DNA of 64,000 nt, from the NCBI GenBank assembly GCA_024102815.1, contig JAGFJJ010000010.1:62001-126000 (forward strand), in the 5' to 3' direction. The position numbers and the translations under genes are program-made. This document shows, one piece after another, positions 10,467-32,722 of this stretch. The notes under the pieces are model-generated. The model was not told the origin of the DNA. It saw only the letters and a program-made list of their open reading frames with translations, and made no database searches. Every line of letters starts with the position of its first letter. Position 1 is the first letter of the stretch. Source of the stretch: Phycisphaerae bacterium (GTDB lineage: Bacteria; Planctomycetota; Phycisphaerae; UBA1845).

Positions 10467-13067
10467 TCAACCGCCACTGGCCAGCGCGGTGAGGCCGTCG
10501 ATCGACGCCGTCAGGAACCCGAACACGAAGTCCGGATTGTGGACACCCATGCTGCCGTCGTTGTTGGCAAGGTTGTAGTTCCAGCCGGCCTTGACCAGGC
10601 GCTCGTCGGCGAACATGTAGATGTCGCCGAGGTCGGTGTCGGCGTCATCGATAACCTTCACGCTGTTGAGGCCGACCGGGCCGATGACCGTGTCGTCCGC
10701 CAGCGTGAACGTCAGCGCCTGGCGCCCGCTTCCCTCGCCAAACGACAGGCTGGCGATGTCGGCAATGCTGTCGATGACCGTGGTCGTTCCGCCACTGCTG
10801 ATGCTGATGCGGTTGCCGGCGGCAATCTGCGCCGCGAACAGATCGGAGAAGGCGGCCTCGATAAGGCCCTTGAGCATCTCGGATCTCGTGGCGTATGCGT
10901 CCTGCAGCGCGTCAGGATCGATCATCTCACCGTGGCACTCAGCGCAGATGCCGGTGCTGGCGAAGAAGGTGTGGTTCGTACCGCCGAGGTTGTACGACAG
11001 CAGATCCGGCGGCGGCGTCTGCCGCATGTGGCAGTTCACGCAGGTGTCCTCGACGAAGGAGTGAGGCCCGCGCACACCGACCGTGACCTGGTAGGCATTC
11101 TGACCCATGAGGATGTCGGCCTGGGCGGAGCCGTGCGGGGCACGCGTCGCCTCGGCCGTGCCGAAGTCCGCAGTGAAGTTCGAATCGTTCTTGAGTCCGC
11201 GGCGCGTGTTGTGGCAGGTTACGCAGATGGCACCCTTACCCGCGCCCAGGACGGTGAAGCCGGCAATCAGCGGCGGCGAGTCGCCCTCGATGTACACGTT
11301 AGCGTTGTTGTTGTCTCCGCTGACCGTCCCAACCATGTGCGGATCGTGGCAGGTCACGCAGGTCTGCGGATGCGTTTCGTCGGCCGTCCAGGTGACTTCT
11401 ACATCCGCGAGAGGATCGGTGGCGGGATCGTTATCGAGCAGAACCGGCAGCCAGGCGAGGAAGCCATTCGCCGAGTGGCAGCGTGCGCAACTGCCGTTCG
11501 TGCCTTCCTCCGCCGCCAGCTCGTAGTTGGCGTGGCGGCTGAGCTGCCACTGCTGGAAGCGTCCGTGACGGAGCGGCTCTCCGTGGCAGGAACCGCAGAC
11601 GTCGGAAGCAAGACTTACGCGGGGCGCGCCCATCGTATGGGCACCGCCGGAATTCGGGCCGTGGCAATTCTCGCACTGGATGTTGCCGAACTGCATGGCA
11701 TTGGGGAAATCGGCCAGCGCCGTGGTCCAGTTGTCGGGGCTGGGATTGTTGATGAGCCCGGAGTCGAGGAACGCCTGATAGTCGTCCTGATCGTCCAGAC
11801 CGTTGTTGTCGGCCGTCGGATCAAACCCCACGCTGTGGCAGGCGAAGCAATTCGGACCCCAGTGATCGCCGGTATTGAGCTGATCGGTAAAGATCATCGC
11901 GTGACCGGTCTCGCGCCAAGGCGTAAACATGTCGGGCGCGATCGTGTCGTTGTGGCACACCGTGCAGTTGTCGGCGACCGGAAGCCCGTCGGCCCCCTCT
12001 CCCGTGACGGCACCAACCCACTCGCCGGCATAAATCTCGATCTCGACTTCCGCAGCCGGATCGACCGTCTCATCCGTAACGGTAAGGGTGTATACGCCGC
12101 TTCGGTCCGGTGTGAAATAGGGATTGCGCGTGGTGGCGTCGGTCAGCGCCGCGCCCGAACCGCTCGGACGGGCAAGCGACCAATCATACGTCTCTTGCTC
12201 CTTGCCTTGCAGAAGGACGGGAACACCGATCGGAACGTTGCGCAGGCCGGTCGTCCAGCCCCAGGGCAACTCCGCGTGAACCTGCAGCGAAGCGTTGTAG
12301 GTACCGGAAGACGTTCGCACGGCGACGCTCAAGTTCGAAAGGCCCGCCTCCTCCAATGAGAACGGGTTGATTCCCGCGACCTGGAAGCGGCTCGGCAGTC
12401 CACCCACGAACTCGCCTTCGGGCAAGGGAACGTTTGGAGGCAATTGGTCAGCACCGATCGGCGGCTCGGTCAACGCGGTGTAGAGACGGTCTTTGTAGGT
12501 TGCGAGAGCAGGAAGCTCGACGGAGGGCGTGCCCGAGTTGCCGCCATCGATGACTACGGCAACGCCTTCGCCCTGGGTCCAGGTGTAGCTCTGCAACGTC
12601 GAGCCGTCGAGGATCTCGACCGTGGCCCGCGCTGTAACCGTCTCTCCCGGTGCGGGATCGCCGTCAATGGAGGTTGTGACGATGACGTTGGCAGTCGGCG
12701 TGAGCGCCGCGTCGGCCGTGGTCACCAGACCGGGCAGGATCAGCACGGTACGCGAGACCGACTGGAATCGGCTGTCGGTAAACGTGATCTCATAAATGCC
12801 GTTGGGCAGCACCGCGGAGAATGTTCCGTTCGCCGCAGTGGTGATGTCGACGCCATCAACAGCGGGGTCGACGGCCACCGCCACCCCTTCGACGGCACTG
12901 TCCGTGAGGTCGTTGGTGACGGTACCGGACAGCGTTCCCGTTGCCCCACCGCCGCCACCGCCGGGTATGACCGGACAGCCGGTTACGAAGGCCAGACTCA
13001 ACACGCCGACCAACGCCGCGACGCCTTGCAGGCGTCTGGCACCGAAGGTAGCTCTTTGCGTCATCAT
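10467..13067 (-). CDS. Nine-haem c-type cytochrome lipoprotein
   Basis: The 866-residue protein begins with a lipoprotein signal: basic residues, LVGVLSLAFVTGC with the lipobox VTGC, then a Gly-rich linker, so it is a membrane-anchored, probably outer-membrane or periplasmic, lipoprotein. Residues about 43-115 look like a carboxypeptidase-regulatory/Ig-like beta domain, followed by further beta-rich sequence. Residues about 366-712 hold nine CxxCH haem sites (CTVCH, CFACH, CENCH, CGSCH, CARCH, CVTCH twice, CVNCH, CAECH), with extra His residues as possible distal ligands. The last 150 residues carry no haem. Role inferred: electron storage or transfer to extracellular or periplasmic acceptors. 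GGAGG lies upstream of the start. Confidence 0.9.
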   Translation of the reverse strand: MMTQRATFGARRLQGVAALVGVLSLAFVTGCPVIPGGGGGGATGTLSGTVTNDLTDSAVEGVAVAVDPAVDGVDITTAANGTFSAVLPNGIYEITFTDSRFQSVSRTVLILPGLVTTADAALTPTANVIVTTSIDGDPAPGETVTARATVEILDGSTLQSYTWTQGEGVAVVIDGGNSGTPSVELPALATYKDRLYTALTEPPIGADQLPPNVPLPEGEFVGGLPSRFQVAGINPFSLEEAGLSNLSVAVRTSSGTYNASLQVHAELPWGWTTGLRNVPIGVPVLLQGKEQETYDWSLARPSGSGAALTDATTRNPYFTPDRSGVYTLTVTDETVDPAAEVEIEIYAGEWVGAVTGEGADGLPVADNCTVCHNDTIAPDMFTPWRETGHAMIFTDQLNTGDHWGPNCFACHSVGFDPTADNNGLDDQDDYQAFLDSGLINNPSPDNWTTALADFPNAMQFGNIQCENCHGPNSGGAHTMGAPRVSLASDVCGSCHGEPLRHGRFQQWQLSRHANYELAAEEGTNGSCARCHSANGFLAWLPVLLDNDPATDPLADVEVTWTADETHPQTCVTCHDPHMVGTVSGDNNNANVYIEGDSPPLIAGFTVLGAGKGAICVTCHNTRRGLKNDSNFTADFGTAEATRAPHGSAQADILMGQNAYQVTVGVRGPHSFVEDTCVNCHMRQTPPPDLLSYNLGGTNHTFFASTGICAECHGEMIDPDALQDAYATRSEMLKGLIEAAFSDLFAAQIAAGNRISISSGGTTTVIDSIADIASLSFGEGSGRQALTFTLADDTVIGPVGLNSVKVIDDADTDLGDIYMFADERLVKAGWNYNLANNDGSMGVHNPDFVFGFLTASIDGLTALASGG

Positions 13068-18504: not shown

Positions 18505-18584
18505 TTGATGGCACGCCGTTTGCGATGCGGAAAGTATCTCTCTACCTCCGAGGGGAGGGTTTGCGCACATCACGGGAAGAATCC

Positions 18585-21584
18585 ATGAAATCCGTCATCC
18601 TGCTCGCCGTTTTTGCAGTGCTACCGGAACAGGTCGCACCCCTGGAGCATGTTGCTTCGCTTAATGAAATGTTGCGGAGCCCCGCACGAGTCGCCGTGTC
18701 GTCGGACGGTCAGGTCCTGGTAACTGACCCGTCGCGCCGGCAGATCGTACGATTCGATGCCCTCGGGAATCTGCTTGGTAGCTGGCCGGTGCCCGAGCGC
18801 CCGATCGGCCTCGCCGTGCACCCGGACGGTCGCTACTTCGTCTCCTATCGCGATGAGCCCGGCGTGGGGATCTACGATTCGACGTTCACTCGAATCGGTC
18901 TCCTGGGCGAAGGGCAGCCTCTCGTTGCCTTTACACGTCCGACGGACATCGATGTCGCTACGGACACCGGGAGAATCTATGTCGTCGATTCCGGCGCGGA
19001 TCGCATCTACGGCTTCGAAAGCACGGGCGGCCTGGCACTCATCTTCGGCACCCATGGCGAAGGATTGGGGCAGTTTCAATATCCCAGCGCTATCGCGGTG
19101 GATGAAGAACGCAGTCGTCTGCTCGTCGCGGACCAAGACAACTTCCGCGTCCAGGTGTTCTCGACGTCGGGCCTGCTCCTCGGGCGATTCGGGTTTCGCA
19201 ACAAGTACCTGCCCTCAGGCGGACAAGAGGGCTGGCTGCCTCGCACGCAGGGAATCGCCGTCGACGATCAAGGATACATCTACCTTGCCGACGCGCTGAT
19301 GAACACCGTGCGAATCTTCGCCCCCAATGGCATGGAACTGGGCAAAGTCATTGAGCACGGACAAGCGGCAGGTGCGGTGCGCACACCGTGCGATCTTGCA
19401 TTGAGCCCTGACGGCCAGCGGCTGTATGTCGCCAGCACGAATACTTCTACCGTTGAGATCTTCGCCACGCCCACGCTGCCGGCGCCACGAGGCATGAGTA
19501 TCGAGATTGTCGGCGACGGCCACACGGCAGGAACGAATGACTCGGCCCACGACACGGAATTCCGTCGGACCAAGGAAGCACGGGGCGTGACGAAAGAGAA
19601 AGGGCTGCGGCCCTCTCACGCTGAACCATCTCATGTTGATTCGCTCGCCGACTCCGGGCATACGCCAATCGCTGGATTCGCGGTCCTGTCAAGCTACGAA
19701 GGTCCACACATGATCAACGCAACGGTGATCTGCGGGCGGTGCCACGGGATCGCCGGTCAACCCGGCGGTAACCCCGCGACGCTCGAAGGGCAGATTACAC
19801 TTTGCATGTCCTGTCACAGCAGCGGTGGCCAGGCGATGAGCACACCGCTCAATGCGGCGGATATTATCCACGGGAACGATGGCCCCGGGCGTTCGCATCC
19901 CTGGGGAGTTCCCGCCGTAAACGAAGATTTCGGCTCGACCGGACCCCATGCAGGCGGCGACATGGCGGCCTACCTCGCCTCCGGCGGCCTCATCAAGTGC
20001 GGCACATGCCACGACCAGCACAGCAATGATGCTGGTTCGCCGTATCTGCGGGTCCGCAACACCCGCGGCTCCATGTGCAAGGAGTGCCACACGGGGAGGA
20101 GCGATCACACCCCTGACAGCGCATGGCAACCGAACTGCAATGAATGTCACGCGCCGCACGATTCCTCAAGCTACAATCTGTCGTTGATCGCAACGTCCGT
20201 GGAGAACAGGACGCTGGACATGATGATGCCCGTCGTGTTCACGGCTCGTACGGGTCCCGGAAGCTTCGACGACGGGAATCCCGCCAGCAACGACGGCATC
20301 TGTCAGGTATGCCACACGGCCACCGCCTATCATCGATATGACGGATCATCGGCCGGGCACCACGGAGGTTCCGACTGCACCGCCTGTCACCCGCATGAAG
20401 ACGGCTTCCTGGCAACCGGGGGCGCTTGCGATGCCTGTCACGGCGCTCCGCCGGCAACGGGGGCCCACCTGGCGCACTTCGGCGGAACGGCCGAAGACGC
20501 CAATTACGGTGGCGTCGAGAATCTCTCGCTCCCCGCGTCGCACGTATTTCAATGTGGCAACTGCCACCCACACGCGTCATCGCGGCATCTCAACGGCACC
20601 GTTGAGATTGAACTGTATTATCCTGGAGCCCCGCCCGACAGTCTGAAGGGGCGCAACCCGGCTACAGCGGAATATACGCCGGGGCCCGTTGCGCACACGG
20701 ATGTCAACGGCATCCCCTACTCGTTGGGCTCATGTTCAAATGTCTACTGCCACAGCCAAACCGTCTGGTCGTCGCCCACGCCGATTTCCGCGCCGCTGGT
20801 CGATTCCGGAACGGGATTTCCAATCCTGGATGCAAACGGCAACCTGACCTACGACCCGTATTCCGTAACAGAATCGAGGGATTACGCCGTCGTAAGCTGG
20901 GGAGACTCCGCACTGGGCTGTAATGCCTGCCATCGAAACAACCCTCAGACTTCATTCCCGGATGTTCGAGCGGGCGTGGGAAATTCGCACGGCTGGATCG
21001 ACGACTTCGGCTACGAGGATCTCCACGCATGGAATATGGGGTTCGATCCGCTGACGTGCCGGGTATGTCACTTTGCCACGGTTCAGGACGAGATGACCTG
21101 GGTGCGCGATGCGCAGGATATCACGCATTTCGACGATGCGCCGATTGCCGATAGATCCATTCACGTGAACGGCGCCATTGAAGTCGTTTTCGATCCTGTA
21201 AACCCCGTGGTCTATCCGGCGACGGGCCGCACATATGAGTACAATCTGGCCACTGCTGCATACGATCCTTCGAGCAAGACCTGCTCTAACGTCGGTTGCC
21301 ACCTGAATCAGGCCGCCCCGGAATGGGGCAAGCCCTATCGGTGGTGGGATCCGTTCGAGTGCGACCAATGTCATCAGTACGGCGGACCCTGGCCGCGGGG
21401 TTCGTCGGAGATCGTTCTCGAACAACCGACCATGCATTTTGATCCGATTGAGTTGGAGAAGTCCGCCTCATCGGGCGATCCGGCAATCTGTACGCGCTGC
21501 CACCAGGGACATACCCTCCGTCGCGATCAAGACCCAGCACCCGTGCGGAAGGAAACGCGCTCAACGCTGCGTGACGAGCGATAG
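18585..21584 (+). CDS. NHL beta-propeller fused to 15-haem cytochrome c (CxxCH plus CX4CH type)
   Basis: The 999-residue protein starts with a signal peptide (MKSVILLAVFAVLPEQV). Residues about 30-310 form an NHL-type six-bladed propeller with repeats such as RPTDIDVATDTGRIYVVDSG and RTQGIAVDDQGYIYLADALM. From 383 to 973 there are 13 CxxCH sites and two CX4CH sites: CSNVYCH (717) and CSNVGCH (900). The CX4CH...CxxCH arrangement matches the domain family first described in Geobacter outer cytochromes. It is expected to be periplasmic or surface exposed and to move electrons; the propeller may dock a partner. I chose the ATG at 18585 with GGGAAG upstream rather than the ATG 20 codons earlier because the signal peptide begins there. 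Confidence 0.9.
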   Translation: MKSVILLAVFAVLPEQVAPLEHVASLNEMLRSPARVAVSSDGQVLVTDPSRRQIVRFDALGNLLGSWPVPERPIGLAVHPDGRYFVSYRDEPGVGIYDSTFTRIGLLGEGQPLVAFTRPTDIDVATDTGRIYVVDSGADRIYGFESTGGLALIFGTHGEGLGQFQYPSAIAVDEERSRLLVADQDNFRVQVFSTSGLLLGRFGFRNKYLPSGGQEGWLPRTQGIAVDDQGYIYLADALMNTVRIFAPNGMELGKVIEHGQAAGAVRTPCDLALSPDGQRLYVASTNTSTVEIFATPTLPAPRGMSIEIVGDGHTAGTNDSAHDTEFRRTKEARGVTKEKGLRPSHAEPSHVDSLADSGHTPIAGFAVLSSYEGPHMINATVICGRCHGIAGQPGGNPATLEGQITLCMSCHSSGGQAMSTPLNAADIIHGNDGPGRSHPWGVPAVNEDFGSTGPHAGGDMAAYLASGGLIKCGTCHDQHSNDAGSPYLRVRNTRGSMCKECHTGRSDHTPDSAWQPNCNECHAPHDSSSYNLSLIATSVENRTLDMMMPVVFTARTGPGSFDDGNPASNDGICQVCHTATAYHRYDGSSAGHHGGSDCTACHPHEDGFLATGGACDACHGAPPATGAHLAHFGGTAEDANYGGVENLSLPASHVFQCGNCHPHASSRHLNGTVEIELYYPGAPPDSLKGRNPATAEYTPGPVAHTDVNGIPYSLGSCSNVYCHSQTVWSSPTPISAPLVDSGTGFPILDANGNLTYDPYSVTESRDYAVVSWGDSALGCNACHRNNPQTSFPDVRAGVGNSHGWIDDFGYEDLHAWNMGFDPLTCRVCHFATVQDEMTWVRDAQDITHFDDAPIADRSIHVNGAIEVVFDPVNPVVYPATGRTYEYNLATAAYDPSSKTCSNVGCHLNQAAPEWGKPYRWWDPFECDQCHQYGGPWPRGSSEIVLEQPTMHFDPIELEKSASSGDPAICTRCHQGHTLRRDQDPAPVRKETRSTLRDER

Positions 21585-21717: not shown

Positions 21718-23589
21718 ATGAACAAGGAAAAGATCACACGGCTCGGCCCCGTTGGCAGCACCGCCAACCTCGCGCGGATGCTGCTCAGTTGCACTGCGGT
21801 GGGCCTGATTGCGGGCGGCGGTGCAGCATTGCTTCTGGTCATGCTCCAGGCGGGAACGTCCCTCGGCCTGGGTTTCCTGGCGAACTATTTCCCCGGCACG
21901 GCCGGCAACGAGTCCGTCCCGCCCTACTTGATCTTCGGATCGCTTTTCGCCGGCCCCGAAATCGTTCGATGGATGCTTTTGATTCTGCCCGCGCTCGGCG
22001 GACTTGCCAGCGGCATCATCACGTTCACATTCGCGCCGGAAGCCGAAGGGCACGGCACGGACGCGGCCATCGTCGCCTACCACTTTCGCGACGGGGCGAT
22101 TCGCAAACGGGTGCCGATCATCAAGGCCATCAGTTCCACACTCACGATCGGCTCCGGCGGTTCCGGCGGGCGGGAAGGCCCCATTGCCCAAATCGGCGCG
22201 GGATTCGGATCGGTGCTCGGACAATGGCTCGGCGTTCCGCCTGCGGAACGGCGGATACTCATGGCCGCGGGCCTGGCGGCGGGAATCGGGGCGATCTTTC
22301 ACGCACCGTTGGCTGGCGCGCTCTTTGCGGCCGAGGTGCTCTATCGCGATCCGGATTTCGAGCATGAAGTGCTCGTGCCGTCCTTCATTTCCTCGATCGT
22401 GGCCTACAGCACATTCGGAGGCGTATTCGGATTCGAGCCCCTGTTTCGAGCGCCACCCTTCACCTTCGACTCCGTCGCGCAATTGCTCCCCTACCTCTTC
22501 CTGACGGGCGTGCTGACCGTCGCCGCCATGCTTTTCGTGACGGCCTTCTACGCCGTGCGCGACTTGACCTTCAAGCGCGCCTCGCGAATCCCGAACCACA
22601 TCAAACCGGCCATCGGCGGACTCATCGTCGGGCTCATCGGCTACTTTCTGCCTGAAGCCCTCGGCACCGGTTATGGCGTGGTCCAATCGTGTCTCGACGG
22701 CAACGTCATTGCGCTGCCCACGGCGAGTGTCCTGGGCACGATGCTGCCCGCGAACTGGGGGCCCACGTATGTTACCGTGACCGTTCTCGGGCTGATCGCC
22801 ATTTCCAAGATCGCCACGACTTCCTTCACCATCGGCACGGGCGGCAGCGGCGGCGTGTTCGGACCGGCCATCGTCATCGGCGGGGCGCTCGGCGGCATGA
22901 CGGGCATCATCTGCCAGCATCTCTTTCCCTCGTTGAACATCCAGCCCGGGGCGTTCGCCCTCGTAGGCATGGCCGGCTTTTTTGCCGGCGCCGCGAACAC
23001 GCCGGTGTCCACCATCATCATGGTCAACGAAATGTCGGGGAGCTATCGACTGCTCATCCCATCGATGCTCGTCTGCATCTTGTGCTACATCCTCTGCCGC
23101 CGCTTCACGCTGTATCGCGAGCAATTGCCGTCACGGCTCCACGCCCCCAGCAAGATCGGCAGCATGGCCAATGCCGTGCTCCGCTATGTCACCGTCGGTG
23201 ATATTCTGGAAAGACGGGGCGAACTGGCGCCCGTGCTGCTCCGCGACGAAATGAGCTTTCCGGATGTCCTGGATCGTTATGCCACGTCAGCGCAGGACTG
23301 TTTTCCGGTTGTCGACAAGGAAGGGAAGCTCACCGGGGTCATCGACGGCCGCGATATCCGCAGCATTATTCATCTGGGAACGGTGCCGGAACTCATCATC
23401 GCTCATGACATCGTCCGCCCCGCGATCACGGTGACGCCGGGGGACTCGCTGCTGGCGGCACTCAACAGCCTCATGCGCTCCAATCTCAGCGAACTCGTCG
23501 TCATCCAACCGGACGAAGACGACAAGATCGTGGGCACACTCGGCCAACCCGACATCGTCGCCGCTTACAACCGGCAGCTTCGCACGTGA
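21718..23589 (+). CDS. ClC-family chloride channel/transporter with C-terminal CBS domains
   Basis: The 623-residue protein has the ClC core at about 15-440. The ion-path motifs are GSGGSGGREGP (about 143-153, with the gating Glu in GREGP), GTGGSGGVFGPAIVIGGALG (the GxFxP segment) and GMAGFFAGAANTPVS. After the membrane part, residues about 490-620 form a CBS pair (VTVGDILERRGELAPV and PAITVTPGDSLLAALNSL) that in relatives binds nucleotides and gates transport. It lies 133 bases after the 15-haem gene on the same strand and may be cotranscribed. Whether it is a channel or a Cl-/H+ exchanger cannot be decided. It converges on the 13-haem gene with only six bases between. Confidence 0.9.
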   Translation: MNKEKITRLGPVGSTANLARMLLSCTAVGLIAGGGAALLLVMLQAGTSLGLGFLANYFPGTAGNESVPPYLIFGSLFAGPEIVRWMLLILPALGGLASGIITFTFAPEAEGHGTDAAIVAYHFRDGAIRKRVPIIKAISSTLTIGSGGSGGREGPIAQIGAGFGSVLGQWLGVPPAERRILMAAGLAAGIGAIFHAPLAGALFAAEVLYRDPDFEHEVLVPSFISSIVAYSTFGGVFGFEPLFRAPPFTFDSVAQLLPYLFLTGVLTVAAMLFVTAFYAVRDLTFKRASRIPNHIKPAIGGLIVGLIGYFLPEALGTGYGVVQSCLDGNVIALPTASVLGTMLPANWGPTYVTVTVLGLIAISKIATTSFTIGTGGSGGVFGPAIVIGGALGGMTGIICQHLFPSLNIQPGAFALVGMAGFFAGAANTPVSTIIMVNEMSGSYRLLIPSMLVCILCYILCRRFTLYREQLPSRLHAPSKIGSMANAVLRYVTVGDILERRGELAPVLLRDEMSFPDVLDRYATSAQDCFPVVDKEGKLTGVIDGRDIRSIIHLGTVPELIIAHDIVRPAITVTPGDSLLAALNSLMRSNLSELVVIQPDEDDKIVGTLGQPDIVAAYNRQLRT

Positions 23590-23595
23590 CATTTC

Positions 23596-24849
23596 TCAAC
23601 GGGCGGAAGCGCCATCGGCTCCGTTCGGAAACCGCATCTCTCCCTCGTGGCAATCCGTACACACGGGGGGCCGGTCGTAGCGACCATCTTGGTGGCAGGT
23701 GCTGCAATCAATCTCGGCGTGATTCTCGTCAAGAACCTGCCCCGTGATGGCATGGTCGAACGCGCCGGCATCCCAGGGCTCGTGACAGGCCGAGCACTCT
23801 TTTGAAGGCGCCTCAAACGGAACGTCCGCGTGGCAACTGCGGCACGGCACGCCGGCGTGGTAGGATTTCAACGGCCAACCCGCAACGGTGGCGTGGTCAA
23901 ACAAGCCGCGCAGAGGAGTACCGTCAGGAATGTGGCATTTCTCGCAGCGCCCGGCCGACCGTCCCGCAAGACTCATGTCGTCGCGATGGCATCGCACACA
24001 GGGCGCGTGGTGCTCCACCAGGGTCGAATTCCGGCGCGCCTCGTCACTACGGCTGTGGCAGCGCGCGCAGCTCGACTCCCGATGGCAATCCACGCAGCGA
24101 AGACCGAATCGATCCGCATGCTCTCCGTGTCGGAACAGCACGCGTCCCGACGCTTCCCGATTCGCCGACCCTTCATAGAATTCCCCGGCTGGTGAGGGGA
24201 TGGGTGGATGCATCCGTCCGAGTATCTCTCCGGGGCCGGGTGCCGCCGCCACACGGCTCCCTGCCTTGCGCCGATGGCAGAGTTCGCACGCGCGTTCATC
24301 GCTCCATTCCCGATGACAAGCCAGGCATTGTTGGTGATAGGCGCCGCGCAGCCCCGGAAGATCGACGCTCGTACCGGATGCGGCAGGATCATGGCAGGCT
24401 CGACATGGGGGAGGTGGCTGACCCGCTGATGAATGGTGGTGGCACGTCGCGCACCCGTCGCCCATCTCCGCCTTTTCCGCATGACCACGGTGGTCGAACG
24501 GAACGGGCAGGTAGGTGTTCTCCAGGACTCCCAGAACGATCACGTCACTGACCGCAGCGAGCTCCGCCGTCGGGACGAGATGCCGGGTGCAGGGATTCCG
24601 CAGACATGGGGCCGAATGCTTCGGCGTCTCGCAATAGTGGCAATTGCCACAGTTCGTTGCGTGTTCCTCTGGTTCCGCGACGCTTGTCTCGACGGGAACG
24701 GCGTCCACCTGCGTCTTGTCCTGCGCCAGTGTGGTCGCCGTAGCCGTCAACAAGATGGCCATCGTCGCCGCGAGGCGCAGACACGACCCGCGTGCTCCAC
24801 TCTCGGCTGCGCCGAACGGACCATTGCCCCCCAGAGCCTCAGGCGCCAT
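23596..24849 (-). CDS. Thirteen-haem c-type cytochrome
   Basis: The 417-residue protein has an N-terminal hydrophobic stretch (about 24-43, ending ATTLAQ) consistent with a Sec signal. It then carries 13 CxxCH sites from CGNCH at 67 to CTDCH near 400, spaced roughly every 20-30 residues with many unpaired His residues. This is the expected electron acceptor of the Fe-S/NrfD complex encoded just upstream. Its ATG overlaps the end of the NrfD-like gene by 11 bases, indicating translational coupling, and GGTGAG lies before it. It is the last gene of the minus-strand operon. Its haem density, about one per 32 residues, is that of a molecular wire-type cytochrome. Confidence 0.9.
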   Translation of the reverse strand: MAPEALGGNGPFGAAESGARGSCLRLAATMAILLTATATTLAQDKTQVDAVPVETSVAEPEEHATNCGNCHYCETPKHSAPCLRNPCTRHLVPTAELAAVSDVIVLGVLENTYLPVPFDHRGHAEKAEMGDGCATCHHHSSAGQPPPPCRACHDPAASGTSVDLPGLRGAYHQQCLACHREWSDERACELCHRRKAGSRVAAAPGPGEILGRMHPPIPSPAGEFYEGSANREASGRVLFRHGEHADRFGLRCVDCHRESSCARCHSRSDEARRNSTLVEHHAPCVRCHRDDMSLAGRSAGRCEKCHIPDGTPLRGLFDHATVAGWPLKSYHAGVPCRSCHADVPFEAPSKECSACHEPWDAGAFDHAITGQVLDENHAEIDCSTCHQDGRYDRPPVCTDCHEGEMRFPNGADGASAR

Positions 24850-26080
24850 GTCTCACCGCGCCTTTCTCAATCCTCCGTGGCGCATCCACCACGGAGCGCC
24901 CGCATTCCGGCACGAAATCGACGATCGCCAGATTCATTGCCAGGAAACGCCAGAGCACGATCAGGCCGGCGAGGACCCCGATCGTAAACCCCCACTCGGC
25001 AAGTGATGGAAAATATCGGTATGGCGCCATGAACGGACGGAACCCCAGCCAGTACACGTTGGTTCGATAGAGCACGACTCCGAACATGACCATCAGGCAT
25101 GCTGCGCCCAATGCACGGGGACTACGCAGCACGCGCGATGACATGAGCATGACGAGAGGAACAACGAGTCCGACGCCGACTTCCAGTCCGAAGGCAGCGG
25201 ACACCAACGAGAAATGGCGCAACTCGGCGAAGCTCCCACGAACCAGCAGATCGCCGATCTTAAATGCCAGATACACACCCAGGACAACGGGCAGATAGCT
25301 TGCGAGACGGCTCAGTTGTCGCATGGGCGGCCGCAGTCCCAGTGAAGTCGAGGACCAGAGACATACGAACATCACCGTGGGAATTGCCGCTACGACGGCT
25401 GACATCACGAACAGGAGGGAGAGAATGGGCGTCCACCAGAGCGGATGGAGCTTGGGACCGGCCAGCACCATGACGTGCCCCAGGGAGGATTGGTGCAGGC
25501 AGGAGATCGCAATGCCGAGTATCACCACGCCGATCATCACCGGCTCGAGCAGTTGATACAGAGACCCGCAGATAACGCCCAGCCAGGGATGGCGAACATC
25601 AAAACGAAAGCGCTCGCAGACCACCGGAACGAACTCGAGATACAGCACCGACAGATAGCACATCACGCACATGCCGACCTCGAACAGCGCCGAATTCCCC
25701 TGCCACATGCTCGGAAGAAGCGGATGCCAGATGTTGTAATAACGGCCGAGATCGGCCGCGAGTAGAATGCAGGCGCACGTGTAGCCCAGCAACGCCGTCA
25801 GGAGCGCGGGGCGAACGAGGAAGTGATAGTCCTGGCGATTCAGGACGTAGACAAGGCCCGCCGTAACGAACCCCCCGGCCGCCAGCGCGATGAATGAAAC
25901 GTCCGCGACGATCCAGATACCCCACGGATAGACCTGGTTCATGTTGGTGCTGGCCTGCAGGCCGAACGCAAAACGATAGATCCCGAAGGCCACGCCCAGT
26001 CCTGCCATGAGGAGCAGGATCGCCGTTCCCGGGGTAAGAAACTTAACGCGCGAGAATGTCGGCAGCGCACTGTGGCTCAT
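24839..26080 (-). CDS. HybB/NrfD-type quinone-reactive membrane subunit
   Basis: The 413-residue protein has nine to ten predicted membrane helices. The GIYRFAFGLQASTNMNQVYP and WGIWIVADVSFIALAAGGF region is diagnostic of the HybB branch of the NrfD/PsrC family. Such subunits exchange electrons with menaquinol and pair with a HybA/PsrB-like Fe-S protein; that protein is encoded directly upstream with a 38-base overlap. The start at 26080 (MSHSALPTFSRVKF) was chosen over an upstream frame extension of 32 codons that overlaps the Fe-S gene more deeply and is not membrane-like. The cytochrome gene follows with an 11-base overlap. The complex is therefore Fe-S + NrfD + cytochrome c, resembling Hmc, Qrc or Geobacter Cbc-type modules. 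Confidence 0.88.
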   Translation of the reverse strand: MSHSALPTFSRVKFLTPGTAILLLMAGLGVAFGIYRFAFGLQASTNMNQVYPWGIWIVADVSFIALAAGGFVTAGLVYVLNRQDYHFLVRPALLTALLGYTCACILLAADLGRYYNIWHPLLPSMWQGNSALFEVGMCVMCYLSVLYLEFVPVVCERFRFDVRHPWLGVICGSLYQLLEPVMIGVVILGIAISCLHQSSLGHVMVLAGPKLHPLWWTPILSLLFVMSAVVAAIPTVMFVCLWSSTSLGLRPPMRQLSRLASYLPVVLGVYLAFKIGDLLVRGSFAELRHFSLVSAAFGLEVGVGLVVPLVMLMSSRVLRSPRALGAACLMVMFGVVLYRTNVYWLGFRPFMAPYRYFPSLAEWGFTIGVLAGLIVLWRFLAMNLAIVDFVPECGRSVVDAPRRIEKGAVRHGA

Positions 26081-27077
26081 CGTGGGACTCCTCAAGTCTG
26101 GACACGTCACCATGCACGACCGCGATACGATCCCTGCCGACCTGGCCGTTGTCGCTCGAGGCGGAGTCGACACCAAACGGGATTTCGCGACGGCGCGTGA
26201 GCCATGCGGTCAGCCCCAGGATCGCGCACCACGCCACGGGAGGCATGAAGTGCTTGAACACGCCATGCTGGATCGACTCCGTCAGGCGGGGCCAGGAGCT
26301 TGCCGCGACCGGCGGAAACCCGAGCTGCTCGAACGGAACCGGACTCAAGTACAGCCAGGACGTTCCGCCCGCCTCGAACTCTCCGTAGACATGGTCCACG
26401 TACACGTCGGGCTGGCGGGCAACACGCTCATGTGCCTTGGCAATCAGTTCCTCGCGCCGGCCGTAAATGAGGCACTCTTTCGGACACGCCTGCACACACG
26501 CCGGAATCGTGCCCCCGTTCGCGTGATCCTCATCGAAACAGAATGTGCAACGACGGACGCGCGGGGTGAGCGGCCTGGCGTACTCGTAGGCGGGCATTTC
26601 GAATGGACACGCCACCATGCAGTAGCGACAGCCCATGCACTTCTGCGCGTCGTACGTCACGGGCCCGTCAGGCAGTTTCCGCAGAGCACCCACGAGGCAC
26701 GCGGATACACATGCCGGATCGACACAGTGCATGCAATTTTGCTTTACATACACGGCCGAAGTTCCGTCATCGTGGTTGAAGGTGCGTCTGTTGACGACGG
26801 TGAAGGAATCGGGACCGGGACGACGAGCTTGCTCGAACAGGGACTGGTCTTCCAGTTCCTCGGGATCAATCTCGGGAAGGCCGTTGGCTTTTGCGCAGGC
26901 CGCCTCGCAGCGCCGACAGCCGCTGCATCGGACCACGTCCACCAGCACTCCCATGGCCTGCGGTGCCGCCTCAATGTGCGAAGATGAATTCGCCCGCGCC
27001 GGTGAGGCGGCTACTGCAAGCCCCCCCGATCCAATCGCCACCGCCCTGCGAAGAAACGCTCGCCGATCAGGATCCAT
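26043..27077 (-). CDS. HybA-like four-cluster [4Fe-4S] protein with Tat signal and C-terminal anchor
   Basis: The 344-residue protein begins MDPDRRAFLRRAVAIGSG, a twin-arginine signal ending near ASPARA. Four cysteine groups bind Fe-S clusters: CSGCRRCEAAC, CMHCVDPACVSAC, CMGCRYCMVACPF and CTFC with CVQACPKE. A hydrophobic helix near residues 280-300 (PPVAWCAILGLTAWL) anchors the C-terminus, as in HybA. The protein should sit on the periplasmic face and relay electrons between the NrfD-like subunit and the cytochrome. The ATG at 27077 is chosen because it opens the Tat signal. It starts 70 bases after the AcfC-DsrE gene and overlaps the NrfD-like gene by 38 bases. Confidence 0.9.
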   Translation of the reverse strand: MDPDRRAFLRRAVAIGSGGLAVAASPARANSSSHIEAAPQAMGVLVDVVRCSGCRRCEAACAKANGLPEIDPEELEDQSLFEQARRPGPDSFTVVNRRTFNHDDGTSAVYVKQNCMHCVDPACVSACLVGALRKLPDGPVTYDAQKCMGCRYCMVACPFEMPAYEYARPLTPRVRRCTFCFDEDHANGGTIPACVQACPKECLIYGRREELIAKAHERVARQPDVYVDHVYGEFEAGGTSWLYLSPVPFEQLGFPPVAASSWPRLTESIQHGVFKHFMPPVAWCAILGLTAWLTRRREIPFGVDSASSDNGQVGRDRIAVVHGDVSRLEESHDEPQCAADILAR

Positions 27078-27147: not shown

Positions 27148-28356
27148 CTAGAACCCGACGTAGGCGTAGCCCTGTCCCTGAAGATCGATGATTCTCGGGT
27201 AGGCCGAGGCAATGGCTTTCACACCCGGTATCAGGTCCGCCTTGCTCAAGCCCAGCTTTTCCAGCGACTTGCCGCACACCTCGATCTGCACGCCCATATC
27301 CAGGAGTTCGCGGACTGCCGAACCGTCGGGATTGGCACCGGGAGTCTTGGTCGCCTTGGCGTAACCGGCGTCGCTGAGCAGTCGCCTCACGGAATCGCCG
27401 TCGAACACGGCGGTCAGATGCACCTCGGACGGCGGAACGCCGATTGCCTCGTATTCCTTGAGCAACTCGCGAATCCGCAACAGGCCGTTCGGCTGTCCGT
27501 CGTTGCCGTCGTTCCCGTCAACCCGGCAGACGGCGCAGATGTCGCGCCTCACGACCAGCGGAGACCCTTCCTCTCCGGGGCTCATCCAACCCCACGATGT
27601 GAAGATCTCCTGCCCTTCCGGGGAGGTGAGGAAGTTGATGAACTCCCGCGCCACCGGCTTCTCCGCCCCACGCTGCGTTAACGCAACGCTGCAATGCCGG
27701 TAGACTCGGTAGTCCGCGCTCACCGGGATCAGCTTGGCCTCGTCCCGCAGGGGCATGTACCAGATGTTCCAGGTGATCCAAGCGTCGAGATCGCGGTGCT
27801 GCCGCCACAGCTTCATGGCGTCATCGCTCGTTTCCGCGGAAACCGAGATATTGGCCCGTAGCTCACGCAGCGCGCGGACATCCGCGAAGCGGCCGGCCAT
27901 GTCTTCCCACAGAGCGGTCTGGCCCGATCCCTCGACCACCATGATCCTGAGCCCGGGTTGCAGGAGGTCGGGAAAGTCGCGGATGCCCCGCGGATTATCG
28001 GGCCGAACAAGAATGACGGACGGACGCATGTACAGCGGTGTTACCGAGGCCGGGTCGATCTTCAGGCTCTCCGTCCGCTCGAAACGGGTCATCATGTACC
28101 CGGCACTGGCATAAATCAGGTCAGCATCGTCGCCGGCCTTGGCGATCCAGGAATCCACCGGTCCCGAGTGAACGTCAATGGTAATCTGATGACGCGCCCC
28201 GAACGCCGTCGCCGCGTCGTGAATCGCCGGCGAAGGCCCCGAAGGGCCGTAGAGTTTCATCGACTCCGGCGGATCACCGCGCAACGCGGGAGTCAGGGCG
28301 AACGTGATGACCGCAAAGGTAAGGCAGTGCGTACGGCAAGCGTAACGAGGGAACAT
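27148..28356 (-). CDS. AcfC-like solute-binding domain fused to a DsrE-like domain
   Basis: The 402-residue protein has a signal peptide (MFPRYACRTHCLTFAVITFALTPALRG). Residues about 30-260 match the AcfC/ABC periplasmic-binding family (LYGPSGPSPAIHDAA, IYASAGYMMTRF, VTPLYMRPSVILVRPDNP, WITWNIWY, REFINFLTSPEGQEIF). A CAVC motif near 284 links to residues about 295-402, which resemble the DsrE/DsrF fold (VHLTAVFDGDSVRRLLSDAG, VCGKSLEKLGL, DLIPGVKAIA, QGQGYAYVGF), including the single Cys that DsrE-type proteins use for sulfur. It is the first gene of the Fe-S/NrfD/13-haem operon. It may bind an oxyanion or sulfur compound in the periplasm; the substrate is unknown. Start: ATG preceded by GGGAGAT. 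Confidence 0.82.
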   Translation of the reverse strand: MFPRYACRTHCLTFAVITFALTPALRGDPPESMKLYGPSGPSPAIHDAATAFGARHQITIDVHSGPVDSWIAKAGDDADLIYASAGYMMTRFERTESLKIDPASVTPLYMRPSVILVRPDNPRGIRDFPDLLQPGLRIMVVEGSGQTALWEDMAGRFADVRALRELRANISVSAETSDDAMKLWRQHRDLDAWITWNIWYMPLRDEAKLIPVSADYRVYRHCSVALTQRGAEKPVAREFINFLTSPEGQEIFTSWGWMSPGEEGSPLVVRRDICAVCRVDGNDGNDGQPNGLLRIRELLKEYEAIGVPPSEVHLTAVFDGDSVRRLLSDAGYAKATKTPGANPDGSAVRELLDMGVQIEVCGKSLEKLGLSKADLIPGVKAIASAYPRIIDLQGQGYAYVGF

Positions 28357-28588: not shown

Positions 28589-31500
28589 TTACCGGAAGTC
28601 GCGTGAGCGCCGGGGCAGGTCCGCAACCCAATCCTCGATATTCTCGAACCCCGCCACCAGCAGGTGAACCACCGACCCCCGACGCTCGATGCGCCCGCGA
28701 GCGATCACCAGCCTGGCGTAGACGGCCGCGTCTCGAAATCGCTCATAGACCTCCGGCCGGACGATCAGGTCCAGGCGGGCGGTTTCGTCCTCGATGGTCA
28801 TGAACATCACCCCTTTGGCAGTACCCGGCCGCTGGCGAAAGAGCACAACACCCCCCACCGCCGCCCGACGACCGAACGGCGATGCCCGCTCGTCCTTGGC
28901 CTCGGCAGCGGTGATCACGCGCAGCCCGCTCAACCGCTCGCGCAAAAATGAAACCGGATGGGCCTTCAGCGAAAGCCCTACGGAGCAGTAATCCCGAGTG
29001 ACATCGTCGGCCGGTGGGACGGCGGGCAGGCGCACCCCGCCGTCACGCGATTCCGGAATACCATCGAACAACGGCAGCGCTCGACCCTTGAGCGCGCGAA
29101 CTTCCCACAACGCGTGCTGGCGATCAAGTCCCATCGACCGGAACGCGTCGGCCGTGGCAAGAACGTGGAGCGTGGACGCCGATACCTCACTGGCCCGCCA
29201 CAGGTCGAAGACGGAAGCGAACGGCCCGAACCGCCTCACCGCCTCCACGATCGCGTCGGCATCGCGCCGCCGCAGTCCGTCCACCATCCGCAGCCCCAGG
29301 CGCAACGCCGGCCCGTCTCCCCCCTCCGTGCTTTCTTCTTTCCTTCCCTCCGTCGCTTCGTGCCTCCGTGCCTTCTTGGCTTCTCCTCTCCACCCCTTCG
29401 TCGCTCCGTGGCTCCGTGGCTTCGTGGCTTCTTTTTTCCTGTTGCCCGTTGCCCGTTGCCCGTTGCCTCTCTTCCCCCTTCGTGGCTCCGTGGCTTCGTG
29501 GCTTCGTGGCTTCGTGGCTTCTTTCTTCCTGTTGCCTGTTGCCTGTTGCCCGTTACCTCTTGTCTGCTCCGTGCCTTCGTGCCTCCGTGCCTCCGTGCCT
29601 TCTTCCTCCAACGTACAATCCCATTCACTGTAATTAGCATCCACGCCGCGCACGACGACGCCGTGCTCCTGGGCGTCGCGGACGATCTGCGCGGGCGCAT
29701 AGAAACCCAGCGGCTGGCTGTTCAGCAGCGCGGCCGCGAACACCTCCGGGTAGTAGCACTTGATCCACGCCGAAGCGTAGACGAGCAACGCGAAGCTCGC
29801 GGCGTGCGACTCGGGAAAGCCGTACTGGCTGAAGCCCTTGAACCGCTCGAAGCACCACACGGCAAAATCGCGACTGTAGCCGTTGCGGACCATCCCACTG
29901 ACGAACCGCCCGGGGAACTCCGCGATGTCCGACTTGCTGGTCCACGCCGTGATCGCCCGGCGGAGCTTTTCCGCCTCCCCGGCGGTAAACCCCGCGGCCT
30001 GAATCGCCAGGGCCATCACCTGCTCCTGAAACAGTGGCACCCCCAGCGTCTTGCCCAGCACGCGGCGAATGGTCTCGTCGGGGTAATTCACCGGCTCCTC
30101 GCCGTTGCGACGCCGCAGGTAAGGATGGACCATCTCACCCACGATCGGCCCCGGTCGGACAATGGCCACCTCGATCACGAGGTCATAAAAGCAACGTGGC
30201 TTGAGTCGCGGAAGCATGGTCATCTGCGCCCGCGACTCGACCTGAAACACGCCGAGGCTGTCGGCCCGGCAGAGCATGTCGTACACGGCCGGGTCTTCGG
30301 GGGGAATGGTGGCTAAGGAAAGGCACGAAGGCACGGAGGCACGAAGGCACGAAGGGCCGGAAGGAAGAAGGCACGGAGGCACGGAGGCACGAAGGCACGG
30401 AGGGTCAGGATTCTGGCAGAAAGTACTTTCATGCTCATCGGCTATTTCTCGAGACTCCGTATGAGACCCTGAAGCACGCGGTCCGTTTCCTGGAGCAGGG
30501 CGTTGATCGCTTCCAACGACCGAAGGAACTCCATTTGTTCGCACAAAATCAACTGGGTTTCGAGCTCCGCAAGAGAACCGCGTGCGACTCGAAGAAATCG
30601 GAGATAGTCCGTTCGGCTTTGCCGGGCATAGCCTTCCGCGATGTTGCTCGGAATGGAGACCGCACTGCGCCTCATCTGAATCGTCAGCCCAAACCTTTCG
30701 ACATCGGGCATTGTCCGAGTGGTCTCGTAAACCATCTTTGCCAACAGCATTGATTTCTGCCAGGCAATCAGATCCCGAAATGTCTTGATTTTCATCGCAA
30801 GCCTCTCTTTCCACTTGCCTTGTTATCTTGGCGCCTTTTGCTTCGCGTCTTCTTTCCTTCTTCTGTTCGTGTCTCCATGCCTCGGCACCTTCTTCCTGTT
30901 GCACGTTGCCTGTCGCCTGTTGCCCGCTATCTGCTTCGTGCCTTCGTGGCTTCGTGCCTTCGTGCCTATTAAGAAGCTCCAGCCCCTTCCGTATCGCCGT
31001 CAGCATGCCCAGCCCGAGCACGTCCACCTTGAGTATGCCCAGCGCGTCGATGTCGTCCTTGTCCCACTCGATGACCGTGCGATCGGGCATGGCCGCGTTC
31101 TCGATGGGCACGAGTTCGGAGAGTTTTCCACGGGTGATGACGAACCCCCCCACGTGCTGCGAAAGGTGACGCGGGAAACCCAGCACCTCGCGGACAAGTT
31201 GAATGAACAGCTTGATCGTTTCGTTGGCGGGATCGAAGCCGATGGCGGCAAGCTGCGCGGGCACATCGCCCGACTGCGAATCGGCGAAAGGATTCCTCTC
31301 CCAGCGATCCACGCGTTTGGCGATGCGGTCCACGGCGTCCAGCGAGAGCCCCAGGGCCTTGCCCACGTCGCGGATGGCGCTTCGCCGGCGATACGTAATC
31401 ACCTCGGCCGTGAGCCCGGCGCGGTCCCGCCCGTACTTCTCGTAGATGTATTGAATGACCTCCTCGCGGCGTTCGTGCTCGAAGTCGATGTCGATGTCCG

Positions 31501-32722
31501 GCGGCTCGTTGCGCTCCCGGCTGACGAAACGCTCGAAGAGCAGGTCGATGCGATCCGGATCGACGGAGGTGACGCCCAGGCAATAGCACACGGCGGAGTT
31601 GGCCGCCGCGCCCCGTCCCTGGCAGAGAATTCCCCGCGAACGCGCGAAAACCACCAGATCGTGCACGGTCAGAAAGTACGGCGCGTAGTTGAGTTCCTCG
31701 ATCAGGACAAATTCGTGCTCGATCTGCCCGCGGACTTTATCCGGAACACCACCGGGATAACGCTCCTTCGCGCCCATCCAGGTCAGCGCCTCGAGATGCT
31801 GCATCGGCGTCATTCCCGGCGGGCAGGTTTCCTCGGCATACTCGTAGCGAAGTTGGTCCAGGCTGAACGAACCGGCACGCTCCGCGATCGCCGCACTTCG
31901 CGACAGCGCGCCCGGACGATCGCGCCAGAGTCGCCGGATTTCGTCGAGAGGTTTGAGATAGCGCTCCCCATTGGGGAACAGTCGAAACCCCGCCTCGTCG
32001 ATGGTGCAGCCGTGACGCACGCAGGTCAGCACGTCCTGAAGCGGGCGGCGCTCGGCGACGTGGTAGTAAACGTCCTGAACGGCGACCAGCGGGACCCGCA
32101 GTTGCTTCGCCACCGTTTCGCAGTGTTTCTCGTGCGCCCGGTCCCGCCCGTCATACAACTGCGCCGCGCCGAGAGAGAGCCGATCGTCATCGAATGCCTC
32201 TCGCAATCGATGCCACTCACGCGGCATTTCGTCGCAGTCAGCCGAGGACGGCAACAGCACGCCGAGCAGGCCTTCCTGATGATCCAGCAGATCATCAAGC
32301 GTCAGTTGACACTCCGCCTTGGCCGCGCGGCGCTTGCCGACGGTCAGCAGCGTGCAGAGGCGCCCATACGACGCCCGGTCCGTGGGATAGACGAGAAGTG
32401 AAAGCCCTTCCGGCTCCGTAAAGATCAGACGACAGCCGACGATGAACGGAATCTGCGATTCTTTCGCGGCAACGTGGGCGCGTACGATCCCCGCCAGCGT
32501 GTTGTGATCGGCGACGGCCACGGCGCCATAGCCGAGCTTCGCGGCTTGGTGCACGTACTCGTCGGGATGACTCGCGCCCCGCAGGAACGTGAAATTGCTC
32601 GTGACCGCCAGTTCCGCGTAGGACGGATCTCGCGATCGCCGTTTCGTTCCCGCCCGTCGCTGCGTCGTCGAAGGCTGAACATGCGGATGCGCGTGCGCTT
32701 TGGCGTCAGGAAGATCGGGCAC
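28589..32722 (-). CDS. dnaE2: Error-prone DNA polymerase DnaE2, carrying two large in-frame insertions
   Basis: The frame runs 1377 codons. The N-terminus has the PHP domain (YAELAVTSNFTFLRGASHPD). The palm has PDIDIDF (Asp 409-413) and KVDVLGLG (Asp567), matching the three polymerase aspartates. Later blocks ATIPPEDPAVYDMLCRADSL, SRAQMTMLPRLKPR and QYGFPESHAASFALLVYASA are typical DnaE2. Residues 586-802 and about 1040-1135 are foreign: repetitive or shifted-frame sequence with no polymerase homology. Without them the protein is about 1064 residues, normal for DnaE2. DnaE2 acts with ImuA and ImuB in SOS mutagenesis; imuB ends 15 bases upstream. Whether the polymerase works with insertions beside its active site is unknown; it may be translated through them, be inactive, or be matured at RNA level. 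Confidence 0.9.
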   Translation of the reverse strand: MPDLPDAKAHAHPHVQPSTTQRRAGTKRRSRDPSYAELAVTSNFTFLRGASHPDEYVHQAAKLGYGAVAVADHNTLAGIVRAHVAAKESQIPFIVGCRLIFTEPEGLSLLVYPTDRASYGRLCTLLTVGKRRAAKAECQLTLDDLLDHQEGLLGVLLPSSADCDEMPREWHRLREAFDDDRLSLGAAQLYDGRDRAHEKHCETVAKQLRVPLVAVQDVYYHVAERRPLQDVLTCVRHGCTIDEAGFRLFPNGERYLKPLDEIRRLWRDRPGALSRSAAIAERAGSFSLDQLRYEYAEETCPPGMTPMQHLEALTWMGAKERYPGGVPDKVRGQIEHEFVLIEELNYAPYFLTVHDLVVFARSRGILCQGRGAAANSAVCYCLGVTSVDPDRIDLLFERFVSRERNEPPDIDIDFEHERREEVIQYIYEKYGRDRAGLTAEVITYRRRSAIRDVGKALGLSLDAVDRIAKRVDRWERNPFADSQSGDVPAQLAAIGFDPANETIKLFIQLVREVLGFPRHLSQHVGGFVITRGKLSELVPIENAAMPDRTVIEWDKDDIDALGILKVDVLGLGMLTAIRKGLELLNRHEGTKPRRHEADSGQQATGNVQQEEGAEAWRHEQKKERRREAKGAKITRQVEREACDENQDISGSDCLAEINAVGKDGLRDHSDNARCRKVWADDSDEAQCGLHSEQHRGRLCPAKPNGLSPISSSRTRFSCGARNPVDFVRTNGVPSVVGSDQRPAPGNGPRASGSHTESREIADEHESTFCQNPDPPCLRASVPPCLLPSGPSCLRASVPSCLSLATIPPEDPAVYDMLCRADSLGVFQVESRAQMTMLPRLKPRCFYDLVIEVAIVRPGPIVGEMVHPYLRRRNGEEPVNYPDETIRRVLGKTLGVPLFQEQVMALAIQAAGFTAGEAEKLRRAITAWTSKSDIAEFPGRFVSGMVRNGYSRDFAVWCFERFKGFSQYGFPESHAASFALLVYASAWIKCYYPEVFAAALLNSQPLGFYAPAQIVRDAQEHGVVVRGVDANYSEWDCTLEEEGTEARRHEGTEQTRGNGQQATGNRKKEATKPRSHEATEPRRGKRGNGQRATGNRKKEATKPRSHGATKGWRGEAKKARRHEATEGRKEESTEGGDGPALRLGLRMVDGLRRRDADAIVEAVRRFGPFASVFDLWRASEVSASTLHVLATADAFRSMGLDRQHALWEVRALKGRALPLFDGIPESRDGGVRLPAVPPADDVTRDYCSVGLSLKAHPVSFLRERLSGLRVITAAEAKDERASPFGRRAAVGGVVLFRQRPGTAKGVMFMTIEDETARLDLIVRPEVYERFRDAAVYARLVIARGRIERRGSVVHLLVAGFENIEDWVADLPRRSRDFR
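29318..29605 (-). repeat. Second in-frame insertion in dnaE2: tandem GGCACGRAG / GGCAACR repeat array
   Basis: Read on the gene strand, the stretch starts with GGCACGGAG-type 9-mers, then CAGACAAGAGG, then GGCAACR 7-mers ending CAGGAAGAAAGAAG, then AGCCACGAAG-type 9-mers. A second 7-mer block and a third 9-mer block follow. It adds about 96 codons between WDCTLE and GDGPALRLGLR. The order 9-mers, CAGA leader, 7-mers, AGGAAGAA closely matches the 5' arm of the larger insertion at 30317-30967, so the two are related. No gene lies inside it. Confidence 0.85.
30317..30402. repeat. Left arm of the inverted repeat arrays (GGCACGAAG units)
   Basis: On the + strand the units read GGCACGAAG and GGCACGGAG, with a GGCCGGAAGGAAGAA break in the middle. 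They are the complement of the array at 30934-30967. Confidence 0.85.
30442..30795 (-). CDS. Four-helix-bundle protein of the 23S rRNA intervening-sequence (IVP) family
   Basis: The 117-residue protein shows the family signature almost throughout: FRDLIAWQKSMLLAKMVYE, FGLTIQMRRSAVSIPSNIAEGYAR, YLRFLRVARGSLAELETQL. Length is the family norm of about 115-125. GAGAGG lies seven bases before the ATG, so it can be translated on its own. The same fold is used by Avd proteins of diversity-generating retroelements, but no reverse transcriptase is present here. Family members are usually found in rRNA intervening sequences or beside short repeats; their molecular role is unknown. This gene lies wholly inside dnaE2, same strand, different frame. 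Confidence 0.93.
   Translation of the reverse strand: MKIKTFRDLIAWQKSMLLAKMVYETTRTMPDVERFGLTIQMRRSAVSIPSNIAEGYARQSRTDYLRFLRVARGSLAELETQLILCEQMEFLRSLEAINALLQETDRVLQGLIRSLEK
30934..30967. repeat. Right arm of the inverted repeat arrays (CTTCGTGCC units)
   Basis: On the + strand the arm reads CTTCGTGCC, TTCGTGGC and TTCGTGCC units up to the dnaE2 junction; it is inverted relative to 30317-30402. GTTGCCY 7-mers (30895-30925) flank it on the inner side. Confidence 0.85.

Follow-up and report, generated by a model that had tools for sequence, protein, structure and literature searches.

An exported AcfC/PEB3–DsrE fusion protein heads a conserved HybA–HybB–13-haem cytochrome operon: a candidate periplasmic partner of a quinone–cytochrome module

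Introduction

What might a protein do that joins, behind an export signal, a binding domain of the AcfC/PEB3 type to a DsrE fold, and whose gene stands at the head of an operon for electron transfer? The question is raised by one gene of the window, by which we mean the whole stretch of 64,000 nucleotides analysed here. The domain families and the general quinone–cytochrome plan are known already. In the open-licence literature, we found no account of the AcfC–DsrE combination, of its fusion-specific cysteines or of the co-inherited operon; a search there for "periplasmic DsrE" was likewise empty, and the sole joint mention of AcfC and DsrE was unrelated.

Results

Two folds in one exported protein

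The gene is an uninterrupted frame of 402 codons (Table 1), and its product is confirmed as an exported AcfC/PEB3-type and DsrE-fold protein. The N-terminal half matches Pfam SBP_bac_11 (residues 34-257, E 5.4e-35), and the C-terminal half matches Pfam DsrE (PF02635; residues 312-402, E 2.9e-9) with 37.6 bits, above the gathering cut-off of 22.7 bits. Among PDB sequences, the N-terminal half finds PEB3 and AcfC (E ~1e-37) and the C-terminal half MTH1491 and ST0148. In an AlphaFold model built with 17 related sequences (pLDDT 81.5), the binding domain superposes on AcfC (4jb7) with a Z of 27.0 over 226 residues and on PEB3 (3fj7) with a Z of 26.8, and the DsrE domain superposes on ST0148 (2pd2) with a Z of 17.2 and an rmsd of 1.4 Å over 107 residues (within 273-402); at a pTM of 0.56, the relative placement of the two domains is uncertain. 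Both domain assignments of the initial annotation are thus supported by profiles, PDB matches and the model, and the domain search places the C-terminal half in the DsrE superfamily. Its assignment of a Sec signal also appears right, judging by clear A-x-A↓Q sites in the homologues (e.g. TASA↓QE, VAGA↓QE and GAAA↓QD).

Table 1. Features of the fusion gene and its operon, in window coordinates
Feature	Position	Strand	Basis
Fusion gene, 402 aa: signal peptide, AcfC/PEB3-type binding domain, DsrE-fold domain	27148..28356	(-)	ORF, Pfam, structure model, 11 further copies
Putative Sec-type signal peptide, about residues 1-28	28273..28356	(-)	Read from sequence by eye
AcfC/PEB3-type binding domain, residues 31-260	27577..28266	(-)	Pfam SBP_bac_11; structure matches 4jb7, 3fj7
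Cys222, in binding domain; 12 of 12 fusions; Phe in PEB3 and AcfC	27691..27693	(-)	Alignments
DsrE-fold domain, residues 273-402	27151..27540	(-)	Pfam DsrE; 2pd2; profile to MTH1491, ST0148, DsrE3A 3MC3
CAVC motif, residues 274-277, DsrE strand 1	27526..27537	(-)	DSSP of AlphaFold model, alignments
Cys361, at DsrE active-site Cys position; 11 of 12 fusions	27274..27276	(-)	Alignments; active-site position from PMC4175335
Tat-exported four-cluster ferredoxin-like protein, HybA/HmcB-like	26043..27077	(-)	Pfam/NCBIfam profiles
HybB/HmcC-like NrfD-family quinone-site membrane subunit	24839..26080	(-)	Pfam/NCBIfam profiles
Periplasmic cytochrome, 13 CXXCH; conserved N-terminal CxxCHxC...CL..C.R motif	23596..24849	(-)	Profiles, motif count

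Conserved cysteines

The initial annotation had the two domains joined by the CAVC motif and the DsrE half keeping a single cysteine, and neither description holds. By DSSP of the model, CAVC is not a linker; it is the first β-strand of the DsrE domain, and because it belongs to that strand, the DsrE half carries three cysteines. A role for CAVC as a conserved redox linker was also rejected because the motif lies inside a strand and its cysteines are unevenly conserved (Cys274 in 5 of the 12 fusions, Cys277 in 10). Position 277 is Tyr in the other two fusions, as it is in the close stand-alone exported relatives. Cys361 aligns with the cysteines of MTH1491 (1l1s) and ST0148 (2pd2) and with the first cysteine of DsrE3A (3MC3, SSO1125). 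The latter is equated by Liu et al. with the established DsrE active-site residue, and DsrE3A is a homotrimer that takes up thiosulfate groups from tetrathionate (PMC4175335). All stand-alone exported relatives that were read have Cys361, and one fusion (L043) has Ser. As read from the alignments, the two new conserved thiols, Cys222 and Cys277, suggest thiol chemistry beyond that of the single-domain relatives.

Recurrence of the fusion

Eleven further copies, full-length or nearly so and 39-76% identical to one another, occur in 10 other genomes, comprising 8 Planctomycetota, one Myxococcales MAG (L040) and one Gemmatimonadota MAG (L041). Because of these copies, two of which lie on MAG chromosome records (CP070718.1 and CP070666.1), an assembly artefact can be ruled out, and the homologues likewise exclude chance juxtaposition or a frame error as the source of the fusion. 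An alignment query of the genome collection returned 21 loci; a scan of the collection with the single fusion protein as query gave no matches. The fusion is rare: of 114 genomes in the order, 9 have it, and among 392 genomes drawn from the phylum it was seen in the window's own genome only, the remaining matches being single domains.

Two copies have local peculiarities. At L038 (1871-4374), in a Planctomycetota genome, two tandem fusion genes lie upstream of HybA, with Tyr at position 277 in the first and Cys in the second. In one Planctomycetota gene (L045 / L026), a frameshift near residue 140 splits the frame, and this may be genuine or an assembly error.

A conserved operon for electron transfer

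The fusion gene is followed, as the initial annotation described, by genes for a Tat-exported Fe-S protein, a HybB-like subunit and a cytochrome with exactly 13 CXXCH motifs, after a 70 bp gap and then with overlaps of 38 and 11 bp. The initial annotation proposed to look for the same fusion beside HybA/HybB genes, and other genomes confirm it: of 11 fusion loci, 10 have HybA immediately downstream, and seven (window, L040, L042, L043, L044, L045 and L077; one is cut by a contig end) keep the full order fusion–HybA–HybB–13-haem cytochrome. Of the others, L038 is cut by the end of its contig, L037 is missing the cytochrome, and L041 has a truncated HybB and a cytochrome located upstream. The fusion at L039 has no adjacent HybA; it lies (L039:863-17064) between a sulfate ABC operon, which includes an alginate-export-type porin, and a hydrogenase-maturation/Hdr/Mvh-type hydrogenase cluster. 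All nine cytochrome copies examined have 13 haem motifs, and the N-terminal motif (Table 1) is conserved among them and adds three extra cysteines.

The HybB-like subunit belongs to the NrfD family (PF03916; 61.2 bits versus a cut-off of 25.8). At the level of NCBIfam models, all scores fall below the cut-offs: 316 of 420 bits for HmcB and 251 of 263 for HybA, the best models for the HybA-like protein; 197 of 550 for HmcC and 290 of 450 for HybB with the membrane subunit; and 64 of 400 for HmcA with the cytochrome. On these grounds, we rejected membership both in the Hmc complex and in the HybA/HybB pair of hydrogenase-2, and no hydrogenase gene was seen beside the window operon.

Several fusion genomes, including that of the window, have a second HybA–HybB–13-haem set without a fusion. 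The set in the window's own genome (L064, C5:58000-72000) is flanked by cytochromes of 19 haems (964 aa) and 11 haems (748 aa), which also carry a cytochrome-b561-like region, and a similar 13-haem/19-haem arrangement is seen in the Myxococcales genome (L040). The window itself encodes further large cytochromes. Across a CLC-channel gene (21718-23589) from the operon lies a 1019-aa protein with NHL β-propeller repeats and many c-haem motifs (18525-21584, plus strand), which may belong to this electron-transfer region as well. A third is an 866-aa multihaem cytochrome with a β-rich N-terminal region and a lipoprotein-like signal (10467-13067, minus strand). On the other side of the fusion gene, also on the minus strand, are two frames named from their sequences, a DnaE2-like DNA polymerase with a long low-complexity insertion of RATGNRKKEATKPRSHEA-type repeats (28589-32722) and one resembling the four-helix-bundle (23S rRNA intervening-sequence) protein family (30442-30795).

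Co-inheritance of the fusion and HybA

In a small tree of HybA proteins (14 rows, with a long outgroup branch), nine fusion-linked HybAs fall on one side of one branch (91/96) and four non-fusion paralogues on the other; 98% of bootstrap trees give the fusion-linked HybAs a single origin. The Myxococcota, Gemmatimonadota and one Planctomycetota copy group together at 100/98, pointing to movement of the fusion operon between phyla as a unit. Because the fusion-linked HybAs group with one another and not with the paralogues encoded in the same genomes, the partnership appears to be a dedicated one, in which fusion, HybA, HybB and cytochrome have been inherited and transferred together. This clade and the co-inheritance of the operon are the strongest functional evidence that the fusion has a partnership with its neighbours, and we consider it very probable that the protein serves as the periplasmic partner of the HybAB–cytochrome set.

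The binding domain and its ligand

The initial annotation called the binding domain oxyanion-type. That it is of the periplasmic binding type stands; the oxyanion label is weak. In fold and full-length similarity, the domain belongs with AcfC and PEB3 (E ~1e-37, Z 25-27), against a Z of ~19-21 for binders of sulfate, molybdate and tungstate, and the ligands in the nearest solved domains, L-phospholactate (PEB3) and D-aspartate (AcfC), are small organic acids, not inorganic oxyanions. Moreover, the SNTSG loop, which we assume to be a defining feature of the AcfC/PEB3 family, is absent: the alignment has a five-residue deletion there, and the loop is short in all fusions. Since this insertion is lacking, the ligand is probably different from those of PEB3 and AcfC. 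One speculative candidate compatible with both halves of the protein is an organic acid that carries a sulfonate or thiol group. No fusion locus has ABC permease or ATPase genes in its fusion operon, and a role as a transport receptor was rejected on gene neighbourhood.

DsrE relatives and the sulfur context

DsrEFH and Tus do work in the cytoplasm, as the initial annotation says DsrE proteins normally do, but stand-alone DsrE proteins that are exported occur in several phyla, and export alone is therefore not new. Near the genes of these exported relatives are YeeE-family transporters (L032, L034 and L049), rhodanese-MBL or rhodanese/persulfide-dioxygenase-like proteins (L032, L034 and L052) and SoxB-like proteins (L034 and L052); the one at L052 scores 283 of 550 bits with TIGR04486 and is thus SoxB-like, not SoxB. 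Of 11 stand-alone DsrE loci, 5 have a rhodanese gene no more than 8 kb away, versus about 0.02-0.07 expected at each from genome-wide counts (P ~2e-5), a value that describes these relatives (about 34-41% identical) and not the fusions, that draws on loci not fully independent, and that uses ORF counts made by hand and contig assignments inferred from coordinates.

The fusion operons contain no catalytic sulfur enzyme, rhodanese, TusA or SoxYZ, and no further DsrE-fold gene is present in the fusion operon, so that it does not constitute a three-gene DsrEFH or TusBCD set. Elsewhere in the window's genome, DsrE matches one protein only, of 107 aa, whose gene neighbours a cysteine-desulfurase-like gene on contig C8. 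Searches of that genome with one Pfam family each found no YeeE-family gene, no dsrAB pair for a Dsr-type sulfite reductase (NIR_SIR matches fell only in one 583-aa frame with two repeats) and no Psr/Phs-type molybdoenzyme (a single molybdopterin match). Aerobic or nitrogen-oxide respiration is suggested by an NO-reductase-like gene and two ACIII-like clusters, one with cytochrome-oxidase-like genes after it, all read from sequence. As to the sulfur- or oxyanion-linked quinone–cytochrome pathway that the initial annotation proposed, the periplasmic quinone–cytochrome role is well supported by context, and the sulfur part is plausible, if indirect, given the retention of Cys361 and the sulfur genes near the stand-alone relatives; against it stand an operon without a sulfur enzyme and a genome poor in the three sulfur families searched.

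Discussion

We favor, tentatively, the idea that the fusion is a periplasmic capture-and-relay protein for a dedicated HybAB–cytochrome quinone module, with sulfur as its likeliest cargo; this statement as a whole we rate somewhat below an even chance. The sulfur role is suggested by the DsrE cysteine together with the sulfur-gene neighbourhoods of the stand-alone exported relatives, and, by this analogy, the chance that the DsrE domain carries sulfur is about even. We infer a physical partnership, a sulfur cargo and electron exchange with the cytochrome that would operate as follows. The AcfC/PEB3-like domain would bind a small anionic compound, in all likelihood independently of any ABC transporter, and the DsrE domain would hold a sulfur group, as persulfide or thiosulfonate, on Cys361, with Cys277 or Cys222 perhaps acting as the resolving thiol. 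Electrons from or for this thiol chemistry would pass between the fusion protein, the 13-haem cytochrome and the Fe-S clusters of HybA, and HybB would exchange them with the quinone pool, in the direction of either oxidation or reduction. Counting against such a relay are the Ser at position 361 in L043, the Tyr at 277 in two fusions and the lack of HybA at L039. The most far-reaching form of the proposal is a previously undescribed periplasmic respiratory route, in which the hybrid captures a sulfur compound (e.g. a thiosulfonate, a persulfide or a sulfonated organic acid), retains the sulfur at Cys361 and is connected by the 13-haem cytochrome, HybA and HybB to the quinone pool for electron exchange, neither a molybdenum nor a sirohaem enzyme being involved. 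This we regard as unlikely.

Several other explanations would account for parts of these data. The fusion could be a ligand-binding assembly or sensor subunit of the HybAB–cytochrome complex, whose DsrE domain, of a fold that forms trimers, serves oligomerization only and whose binding domain reports or concentrates an organic acid, with no sulfur chemistry. The phospholactate and D-aspartate of the nearest solved domains, the trimeric state of DsrE3A (PMC4175335), the one fusion without Cys361, the lack of a sulfur enzyme in the operon and the poverty of the window's genome in the three sulfur families tested are all consistent with such a subunit. However, three cysteines kept in 10 to 12 of 12 proteins that are otherwise so divergent, two of them new relative to the single-domain relatives, would be hard to explain without thiol chemistry, and we consider this explanation rather unlikely. 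The same three cysteines could instead bind or reduce a metal or metalloid (copper, arsenic, selenium or tellurium), the binding domain capturing an oxyanion and the cytochrome supplying electrons, which would suit the multihaem partners and the membership of sulfate, molybdate and tungstate binders in the fold family of the N-terminal domain. But that domain is clearly closer to AcfC and PEB3, the fusion operons contain no metal or arsenic resistance genes, and the DsrE relatives cluster with sulfur genes; this possibility seems distinctly improbable.

Most SBP_bac_11 proteins are ABC receptors, and the fusion might simply serve as the receptor of an ABC or TRAP transporter whose genes lie elsewhere; its adjacency to HybAB would then be incidental, as the position of the L039 copy near a sulfate ABC operon could suggest. 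That operon has its own full-score sulfate-binding protein, however, and an incidental association is difficult to reconcile with HybA adjacency at 10 of 11 loci in three phyla and with a fusion-specific HybA clade, making this the case for which we see very little probability.

The capture-and-relay proposal would link, within one protein, a fold known from sulfur carriers with the periplasmic side of a quinone–cytochrome complex. The hosts are uncultured members of the Planctomycetota, Myxococcota and Gemmatimonadota and need not possess a Dsr, Sox or Psr pathway; if the sulfur assignment is true, the operon would provide a route for respiring or oxidizing sulfur compounds that escapes the marker genes now in use. 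Should it be false, the four genes still form a testable unit whose first protein should reveal the class of substrate.

Comparison with known systems

The N-terminal domain has the same fold as AcfC of Vibrio cholerae (4jb7) and PEB3 of Campylobacter jejuni (3fj7), with about 32% identity over its whole length, and shares with both the motifs YGPxGP, AD, PLYxR, WED, DAWITW and YR. AcfC and PEB3 are not fused to DsrE, however; their common SNTSG loop is deleted in the fusion, and their Phe is replaced by the invariant Cys222. The C-terminal half likewise has the fold and the active-site cysteine position of MTH1491 (1l1s), ST0148 (2pd2) and DsrE3A (SSO1125, 3mc3), but these are short single-domain proteins, whereas the fusion is exported, joined to a second domain and equipped with the extra Cys277 in strand 1. 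Its closest relatives, at about 34-41% identity and with the same Cys361, are the stand-alone DsrE proteins exported by sequence (e.g. L032, L034 and L046-L052), which differ in having no binding domain and, in the close ones, Tyr at position 277; several of their genes lie beside YeeE-family, rhodanese/MBL and SoxB-like genes rather than HybAB.

The operon as a whole resembles HybAB of hydrogenase-2 and the Hmc/Nhc/Qrc and Cbc4-type complexes in combining a four-cluster Fe-S subunit, an NrfD-family subunit and a multihaem cytochrome; Cbc4-type complexes are likewise made up of an Fe-S subunit, an NrfD-family membrane subunit and a multihaem cytochrome. It differs from all of these, including the Hmc/Nhc/Qrc-type quinone–cytochrome families (PMC8076601), in that its 13-haem cytochrome has an N-terminal cysteine motif of its own, its scores fall below the Hmc equivalog cut-offs, it has no adjacent hydrogenase or molybdoenzyme, and its first gene encodes the fusion protein.
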